Below are positions 24,276-25,882 of a stretch of 32,891 nt of DNA, one piece after another. The stretch is from positions 1-32,891 of the forward strand of contig JAADYV010000110.1 in assembly GCA_010092855.1 (NCBI GenBank), read 5' to 3'. Numbering within the stretch: position 1 is the stretch's first letter; every line of letters begins with the position of its first letter. A program made the translations under genes and the position numbers. Origin of the DNA: Chloroflexota bacterium (lineage in GTDB: Bacteria > Chloroflexota > Anaerolineae > Aggregatilineales > Aggregatilineaceae). The notes beneath the pieces were generated by a model that had not been told where the DNA came from, ran no database searches, and worked only from the letters and a program-made list of their open reading frames with translations.

Positions 24276-24295
24276 GGGCTGCACAAAGTGATGAT

Positions 24296-24570
24296 GGAGA
24301 AGAGTAGCGGGACCCACCAGGAGTCCAGAGAGCCGCCACCGGTGAGAGAGCGGTCTGCTGGCCCCGTGAAAGACTCTCCGGAGCGCGGGAAGAACGCCAC
24401 GGGGATTTGACCTCCTGGCCAGTAAGTCCCGACGGTTCGCCCCCGTTATCAGGTTATGATGAGGCTATCCCGCACTTGGTCCAGGGTGTGGTGATGGCGA
24501 ACTTGCAGTGGCACCACGAATGCCCCCTTCTTCGTCTGCATACGAGAAGGGGGCTATATGTTGTGGAGGT
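24296..24570 (+). promoter_or_regulatory. T-box leader with probable Asp (GAC) specifier
   Basis: A T-box element senses the charging state of a tRNA in the nascent message. Stem I base pairs GGAGA (24296-24300) with TCTCC (24375-24379). The specifier loop has the classical AGTA (24303-24306) opposite GAA (24368-24370), followed by A and then GAC (24372-24374), the Asp codon. Further up are CGGG/CCCG and CCAG/CTGG pairs, the conserved AGAGAG (24327-24332), and GGTG (24341-24344) in the distal part, framed by CCGC/GCGG. The acceptor-binding T-box core is TGGCACC (24509-24515). TGGC would pair with a 3' end GCCA, which fits a G73 discriminator base as in tRNA-Asp. The downstream gene is an aspartyl-tRNA synthetase, so specifier, discriminator and gene agree. 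The codon position within the loop is my reading. Confidence 0.88.
24522..24554 (+). terminator. Conditional hairpin of the T-box leader
   Basis: GCCCCCTTCT (24522-24531) and AGAAGGGGGC (24545-24554) form a perfect ten-bp stem just after the T-box core. The sequence after it (TATATGTTGT) has few consecutive T, so the hairpin may terminate weakly or act differently. GGAGGT of the aspS ribosome binding site starts at 24565. Confidence 0.75.
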
Positions 24571-24580
24571 GTCACTCATC

Positions 24581-25882
24581 ATGCAACGCATCTGGACAAC
24601 CCAACTGGGGAGTTATGCCGGCGAACGAGTCCAAATCGCGGGCTGGCTCCATCGTCTGCGCCAACTCAGCAATGTCACGTTTCTGATCCTGCGCGATGGC
24701 CAGGGCCTGGCCCAGGTGGTCATCGACGATCCACGACTGACGGACGAGTTGGCGAACTGGTATCATGAATCGGTGCTCTTGGTCGAAGGAGTCGTCGTGG
24801 TGGAACCACAGGCTCCTGGCGGAATGGAAATCCACCAGCCATCGATCAAACTGCTGGCTAACAGCGCCGAGCCGCCCCCCTTCGACTTGTTCCGCCCGGC
24901 GCTAAAAGCTCAACTCCCCACCATCCTCGACCATGCGCCGCTGTCACTGCGCCATCCCCGGCGACGTGCTCAGTTCCTGATCGCGTCGGCGTCGATCAGT
25001 GGTTTTCGTAGTGCGCTGCAAACCCTGAACTTTGTCGAAATCCAGACACCCAAGATCGTCGCCTCGGCCACCGAGGGTGGGGCCAATGTATTCAAGATCG
25101 ACTACTTCGGCACCCCCGCCTACCTCGCCCAGAGTCCGCAGTTCTACAAGCAAATGATGGTGGGCGTTTTCGAGCGCGTGTTTGAGATTGGACCGGTCTT
25201 CCGGGCCGAGCCGCACTCGACCACGCGCCACATCAACGAATACGTCTCGCTGGATGCCGAGATGGGCTTCATCGATGACCACCGCACGGTGATGACAACA
25301 TTGACCGAAGTGATACGCGGGATGCTGGACACCGTCCGCCGCGACGCGCACGATGCCACTGCCTTACTGGGCATTGACCTGCCGCAGGTCCCGCCCACCA
25401 TCCCGATCATTCATTTTTCCGGTGCGCAAGACCTGATCTGGCGCGAAACGGGCGAAGACCCGCGCGGCGAACCTGATCTGGCCCCGGCACACGAACGCTG
25501 GCTGGGCGATTGGGTCCAGCGGGAGTATGGCTCGGACTTCTTGTTTGTAGAAGGCTACCCGATGGCCAAGCGCCCGTTCTATACCCATCCCGCGCCCCAA
25601 CATCCGGAGTATTCCAACAGCTTCGATCTGCTGTTCCGAGGGCTGGAGCTGGTCACGGGCGGGCAGCGCCGCCACCTGTACGATGACTACCTGGCCGCGC
25701 TCGCTACACATGGCCTGCCAGTTGAACCCTTCGTGGGCTACCTGCAGGCGTTCAAGTATGGGATGCCGCCGCATGGGGGGTTCGCCATCGGCCTGGAGCG
25801 CTGGGTGGCCCAACTCACCGGCGCGAGCAATATCCGCGAAACGACGCTTTTTCCGCGTGACATCCACCGCCTGACGCCGTAA
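24581..25882 (+). CDS. aspS: Aspartyl-tRNA synthetase, archaeal-type (possibly non-discriminating)
   Basis: A 433-residue class IIb synthetase that charges tRNA-Asp, and perhaps tRNA-Asn, with aspartate. An N-terminal OB-fold anticodon-binding domain (about 1-95) is followed by the catalytic domain: FVEIQTPKIVASATEGGAN as motif 1 neighbourhood, FRAEPHSTTRHINEY as motif 2, and GLERWVAQLTGASNIRE as motif 3. AQSPQFYKQ and SLDAEMGF match AspRS rather than AsnRS. The length fits archaeal-type AspRS and lacks the large insertion of the typical bacterial enzyme. ATG 24581 is chosen because GGAGGTG lies about ten bases upstream; an in-frame ATG at 24407 would put the T-box inside the coding region. 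Non-discrimination would need a tRNA-dependent amidotransferase elsewhere in the genome. Confidence 0.93.
   Translation: MQRIWTTQLGSYAGERVQIAGWLHRLRQLSNVTFLILRDGQGLAQVVIDDPRLTDELANWYHESVLLVEGVVVVEPQAPGGMEIHQPSIKLLANSAEPPPFDLFRPALKAQLPTILDHAPLSLRHPRRRAQFLIASASISGFRSALQTLNFVEIQTPKIVASATEGGANVFKIDYFGTPAYLAQSPQFYKQMMVGVFERVFEIGPVFRAEPHSTTRHINEYVSLDAEMGFIDDHRTVMTTLTEVIRGMLDTVRRDAHDATALLGIDLPQVPPTIPIIHFSGAQDLIWRETGEDPRGEPDLAPAHERWLGDWVQREYGSDFLFVEGYPMAKRPFYTHPAPQHPEYSNSFDLLFRGLELVTGGQRRHLYDDYLAALATHGLPVEPFVGYLQAFKYGMPPHGGFAIGLERWVAQLTGASNIRETTLFPRDIHRLTP

Follow-up and report, generated by a model that had tools for sequence, protein, structure and literature searches.

Class I T-boxes of the kind described by the Rfam covariance model RF00230, such as those in B. 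subtilis aminoacyl-tRNA synthetase leaders, combine a long Stem I carrying an S-turn and the specifier with Stem II, Stem IIA/B, Stem III, a UGGNACC bulge, and a competing 3' hairpin. A long Stem I is typical of T-boxes that act on transcription (PMC7583486). Actinobacterial ileS leaders provide known examples of translational T-boxes (PMC1262725; review, PMC7583486), in which sequestration of the Shine-Dalgarno (SD) sequence is the predicted OFF state; which of the two classes evolved first is unknown according to the same review. Chloroflexota T-boxes are already in the literature (PMC2494555, PMC3766115). In Clostridium acetobutylicum, a T-box precedes genes of tRNA-dependent amidation (Saad et al. 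2012, 2013, as cited in PMC4206432), and additional aspartyl-tRNA synthetases (AspRS) are rare in bacteria according to that survey (PMC4206432).

Here, we analyze the leader of a gene that we call aspS2, located in a 32,891-nt stretch of Chloroflexota DNA (the window). By computation, this leader belongs to the T-boxes, its specifier and tRNA match are established, and it contains conserved, alternative structures. It has every class I element listed above but differs from that class in its poor U-tract and its SD-complementary bulge. With the ileS leaders it shares the predicted OFF state; unlike them, it is specific for Asp rather than Ile, comes from Chloroflexota, has a long Stem I with apical elbow-binding elements, and is predicted to sequester the SD through the bulge itself. 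The C. acetobutylicum T-box, as far as the survey's citation describes it, likewise goes with an additional AspRS and concerns the charging of Asp/Asn tRNAs, whereas here a single gene with a GAC specifier is concerned, with AAC found only in one related clade.

Architecture and specifier of the aspS2 leader

The RF00230 model aligns with the leader from end to end (24282-24542, model positions 1-219; 80.9 bits, E-value 4.4e-18). A default Rfam scan at the gathering cut-off, a curated reporting threshold of 93 bits, does not report the leader, given its 80.9 bits. However, six of the seven other T-boxes in the genome also score below 93 bits, leaving only one of eight that passes. Low RF00230 scores characterize this genome as a whole. 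The features are as follows.

24282-24384, + strand: Stem I (RF00230 positions 1-103; covariation in 20 orthologs)
24303-24306 and 24368-24370, + strand: AGUA and GAA, specifier-loop S-turn in Stem I (RF00230 alignment)
24327-24332 and 24341-24344, + strand: AGAGAG and GGUG, distal elements of the tRNA-elbow-binding apex of Stem I
24372-24374, + strand: specifier GAC, which pairs with anticodon GUC of tRNA-Asp (covariance-model alignment; ortholog leaders)
24385-24448, + strand: Stem II, including a separate S-turn (AGUA, 24421-24424) (RF00230 alignment)
24431-24437 and 24443-24448, + strand: GACGGUU and CCGUUA, Stem IIA/B pseudoknot region (RF00230 alignment)
24455-24500, + strand: Stem III region, limits approximate (RF00230 alignment)
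24504-24540, + strand: antiterminator/antisequestrator, UGCAG-UGGCACC-ACGAA ... UUCGU-CUGCA (RF00230 alignment)
24509-24515, + strand: T-box bulge UGGCACC, whose UGGC fits G73-CCA of tRNA-Asp and would fit tRNA-Asn
24522-24554, + strand: alternative hairpin (-21.9 kcal/mol) followed by a weak U-tract, UAUAUGUUG; overlaps the antiterminator 3' strand
24565-24569, + strand: Shine-Dalgarno sequence GGAGG
24568-24574, + strand: GGUGUCA, 7-bp complement of the T-box bulge
24581-25882, + strand: aspS2, archaeal-type AspRS of the non-discriminating family, 433 aa, start ATG at 24581

The folding energy of the leader lies 3.5 sd below that of dinucleotide shuffles, none of 200 being as low. Since the minimum-free-energy structure of the whole leader as a single sequence does not show the T-box fold, we used comparative evidence. 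Among 20 orthologous leaders, 11 of the 14 predicted Stem I pairs show compensatory change, and both helices of the antiterminator/antisequestrator are perfectly complementary in the window. The 3' strand of this element (24531-24540) falls within the hairpin at 24522-24554, which makes the two structures mutually exclusive. The sequence features that mark T-box membership are present, namely the Stem I S-turn with GAC in front of an AspRS gene and a UGGNACC-type bulge matching G73 of the genome's own tRNA-Asp. The opposite strand contains only overlapping frames without known meaning. We judge the leader to be a genuine tRNA-Asp T-box of an ordinary kind, with the specifier switch and the divergent output among its relatives as the two features of further interest. 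An earlier note on this DNA, made from the letters alone, had proposed a T-box and suggested a scan with RF00230; the scan confirms the proposal, though below the gathering cut-off, and finds the landmarks where the note had placed them. Only its start at 24296 has to be moved, as the element begins about 6-14 nt earlier.

Using a model of Stem I derived from the orthologs, we recovered 37 ortholog leaders, including that of the window, and read their specifiers by eye from aligned ends: 32 have GAC, 3 have AAC, 1 has GAU, and 1 is unclear. In the covariance-model alignment, the specifier loop of the window reads GAA-A and then GAC, and GAC is kept in the loop-length variants GAA-GAC, GAA-A-GAC, GAA-U-GAC, and GAAC-A-GAC. 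The GAC specifier named in the earlier note is thus upheld, also against the alternative frames AAG and AGA that it had singled out for checking: these triplets disappear where the loop reads GAA-U-GAC or GAA-U-AAC, and L048 and L163 are among the orthologs without them. We also rejected GAAGAACG (24389-24396) as an Asn specifier, as it occupies a Stem II position in the covariance-model alignment.

The genome encodes tRNA-Asp(GUC) with G73 and tRNA-Asn(GUU) with U1-A72 and G73. Since both tRNAs carry G73, the UGGC core gives no independent support for Asp, although the earlier note had read it as a pointer to tRNA-Asp. The note had counted three independent cues, of which the specifier holds and is the only one that points to Asp alone; the G73 cue does not separate Asp from Asn, and neither does the enzyme, which belongs to a non-discriminating class.

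The AspRS2 enzyme and specifier variants among its leaders

The aspS2 product matches the NCBIfam models PRK05159 (554 bits) and TIGR00458 (388 bits), both above cut-off, and its best PDB match is Thermus AspRS2 (1n9w/3kfu); these bear out the archaeal-type AspRS that the earlier note had read downstream. An identity as AsnRS or bacterial AspRS is excluded by the family scores. The protein lacks the bacterial insertion domain and has 433 aa, whereas the genome's bacterial-type AspRS has 591 aa. At two positions that we take to set tRNA discrimination, its residues H24 and P79 agree with Thermus AspRS2, in contrast to the W and K found there in the Thermococcus enzyme. By its family, AspRS2 is probably non-discriminating and could in principle charge both tRNA-Asp and tRNA-Asn.

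Beyond the reach of the earlier note, aspS2 is the second AspRS gene of its genome, which also encodes a bacterial AspRS (C497), AsnRS (C279), GatB, and up to three asparagine synthetase-like proteins. This set resembles that of Thermus thermophilus, whose non-discriminating, archaeal-type AspRS2 is matched over its full length and likewise stands beside a bacterial AspRS, AsnRS, and Gat amidotransferase; here, in contrast, asparagine synthetases are present and aspS2 is under an Asp T-box. The gene is accessory, occurring in 20 of the 61 genomes searched in the same order. All 20 carriers have an AsnRS match (one only partial), and 18 have a bacterial AspRS.

In a tree of 59 AspRS2 proteins, the three genes with AAC leaders (L161, L164, and L166) form one clade (support 96/90), which adjoins L163 (GAC) and is nested within a larger set with GAC leaders. 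The simplest reading of this topology is one GAC-to-AAC (Asn) change in a nested clade. With a spare AspRS that is probably non-discriminating, the specifier alone would decide whether aspartate or asparagine charging is read out, and one nested clade appears to have made the Asp-to-Asn switch by a single base. A tie between AAC and missing AsnRS or asparagine synthetase was rejected. No clear pattern emerged among the 20 carriers searched: AsnRS occurs in all of them, and the strong AsnB match missing in G033 (AAC) is likewise missing in G057 (GAC).

Other variants were observed among these leaders. L090, a distant Bacillota leader, has a specifier that also looks like AAC. In three Catenuloplanes/Actinoplanes aspS2 leaders (L066, L070, and L078), GAC is kept while the bulge reads UGGU, implying a G-U wobble with G73. 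Before a Bacillota aspS2-type gene (L076, 1224-1327), the specifier loop reads GAA-U-GGC, neither Asp nor Asn, with a UGGCACC bulge. In the four f4-family leaders, a tRNA-Cys(GCA) gene precedes the aspS2 T-box by about 70-100 nt, so that transcription of these leaders may start from the tRNA promoter. The tRNA-Cys(GCA) genes lie at these positions.

L161: 984-1056
L163: 3238-3309, - strand
L164: 3244-3316, - strand
L166: 1003-1075

Termination versus Shine-Dalgarno pairing

The U-tract after the hairpin in the window is interrupted (UAUAUGUUG), with 5 U in the next 9 nt, and a terminator scan did not call this hairpin. Most other T-boxes of the same genome, unlike this one, have T-runs behind the hairpin. 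Seven base pairs can form between the bulge UGGCACC and GGUGUCA at the SD, and UUGCA in the leader is complementary to UGCAA around the start codon. Bulge:SD complementarity of at least 6 bp occurs in 11 of 37 ortholog leaders vs 0 of 149 SD-led control ORFs, counts that are supportive rather than a formal test, the leaders being related and not independent. Eleven is an undercount, as SD detection chose the wrong GGAGG in L045, L157, L158, and L049 (L157 and L045 apparently come from the same genome).

In the window, bulge and SD pair with a predicted probability of 0.89; the value does not exceed 0.04 in any of six f8 leaders (L160, L165, L168, L170, L171, and L172), a GAC branch with U-rich terminators. 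Shuffling of the SD side had an effect of 2.1-3.7 sd in eight relatives and of 1.1 sd in the window, where 26 of 200 shuffles were as low. The predicted OFF fold leaves part of GGAGG unpaired, and SD accessibility shows no clear difference between states. The hairpin that the earlier note had listed as a routine element is present; its U-tract is poor, and SD sequestration seems no less likely than termination. From these predictions we favor translational control, alone or with termination; that translation is the main output we put at about even chances. TBDB applied its translational model to Actinobacteria and to those class I hits that had certain predictions (PMC7778990); therefore, translational cases elsewhere could have been missed. 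Orthologous leaders with two output types offer a natural experiment on transitions between transcriptional and translational T-boxes.

Five Actinoplanes aspS2 leaders (L062, L070, L071, L072, and L078) have CACCUCC just after the antisequestrator strand, facing GAGGAGGU at the SD. They appear to have a third layout, ACCUCC vs GGAGGU, like that of classical SD sequestrators.

The leader is very probably a tRNA-Asp-responsive T-box that raises AspRS2; we infer that tRNA binds, which way the switch works, and that it acts on translation. When Asp-tRNA-Asp is low, the anticodon GUC of uncharged tRNA-Asp would pair with GAC at 24372-24374, its elbow would dock on the Stem I apex, and its G73-CCA would pair with UGGC at 24509-24512. 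The bound tRNA would hold UGCAG-UGGCACC-ACGAA/UUCGU-CUGCA as the antiterminator/antisequestrator, which charged tRNA presumably cannot do. If uncharged tRNA is lacking, the hairpin at 24522-24554 would form and release the bulge, which would then pair with GGUGUCA at the SD while UUGCA pairs with UGCAA at the start codon, reducing translation. Some premature termination at the hairpin is possible. The fuller proposal is a long-Stem-I, Asp-specific translational T-box whose bulge itself pairs with the SD when uncharged tRNA is lacking, in a family whose members have changed what they read (GAC to AAC, matching the enzyme's two possible substrates) as well as their output (SD pairing vs U-rich terminator). 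We hold this tentatively, at slightly below an even chance.

An Asp T-box working by ordinary transcription attenuation, with 24522-24554 as an intrinsic terminator and the SD complementarity incidental, is a serious possibility that we also place below even, near two chances in five. The stability of the hairpin, the five U that follow it, the clear U-runs in f8 orthologs and in most other T-boxes of the genome, and the long Stem I (PMC7583486) would all fit such a terminator. However, the U-tract is interrupted and escaped the terminator scan, the complementarity among orthologs goes far beyond that of control SDs, and bulge:SD complementarity is absent from f8 leaders with U-rich tails.

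Two further explanations concern the role of the switch. It might serve tRNA-dependent asparagine supply, AspRS2 and Gat amidotransferase making Asn-tRNA-Asn and the T-box sensing asparagine shortage either through tRNA-Asn, with an A-G mismatch tolerated at the first specifier base, or indirectly through aspartate. The enzyme family, GatB, the U1-A72 and G73 of tRNA-Asn, the AAC clade, and the C. acetobutylicum amidation T-box, as far as it is described where cited (PMC4206432), speak for this; we nevertheless consider it improbable, as GAC is the specifier in the window and prevails among widely differing orthologs, and the genome has AsnRS and asparagine synthetases. Far less probable still is a decayed remnant without regulatory role. 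Its score under the Rfam cut-off and the weak U-tract might suggest decay, but all domains are present, the helices covary, and specifier and bulge are kept in orthologs that share only 57-74% protein identity with AspRS2 of the window.

T-boxes in the genome and in the order

All 61 genomes searched in the order contain T-boxes. Together with the published cases, this removes the suggestion that a Chloroflexota T-box would be unusual; the assignment to a likely Chloroflexota genome was correct, the nearest AspRS2 orthologs being from Anaerolineae. The specifier loops of the eight T-boxes in this genome read Ile, Ser, Phe, Trp, Thr, Leu, and Asp, with one of the eight truncated. The Ile (AUC) T-box at L001 1501-1770 (- strand) precedes a GNAT acetyltransferase-like ORF, and the T-box at L008 1-222, cut by the contig end, precedes a methyltransferase-like ORF (both identities by eye).

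Within Stem III of the leuS T-box (Leu, CUC) of the same genome, and upstream of its UGGUACC, lies a complete tRNA-Ala(GGC), which we find more surprising than the aspS2 T-box.

L007 1501-1826 (G000:C627:11720-12045), - strand: leuS T-box with tRNA-Ala(GGC)

The ORF downstream reads as LeuRS (by eye). When 30 relatives were searched at the DNA level, the arrangement proved widespread; counting this genome, it is seen in 18 genomes. Among the relatives' loci, 17 have a leader sufficiently complete for assessment (L182-L195, L197-L199): ARAGORN calls tRNA-Ala(GGC) in every one, UGGUACC follows the tRNA after 22-48 nt in the same 17, and GAA-CUC was found upstream in 15. An Rfam scan of nine of the relatives' nested loci gave T-box and tRNA matches in every one, the T-box reaching at least 75 bits in seven. 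In L200, from another family, tRNA-Ala is present and no T-box bulge follows it. The T-box review that we searched does not mention a tRNA nested in a T-box. The leuS leader is possibly a nested tRNA-in-riboswitch transcript. Since RNase P excision of tRNA-Ala would separate sensor and switch, we would guess that the T-box decision comes before excision or that tRNA-Ala output is coupled to leucine status. Divergent from the leuS T-box lies a SAM riboswitch (L007 2048-2155, + strand; 93.7 bits), which precedes an ORF resembling a PLP enzyme of Cys/Met metabolism.
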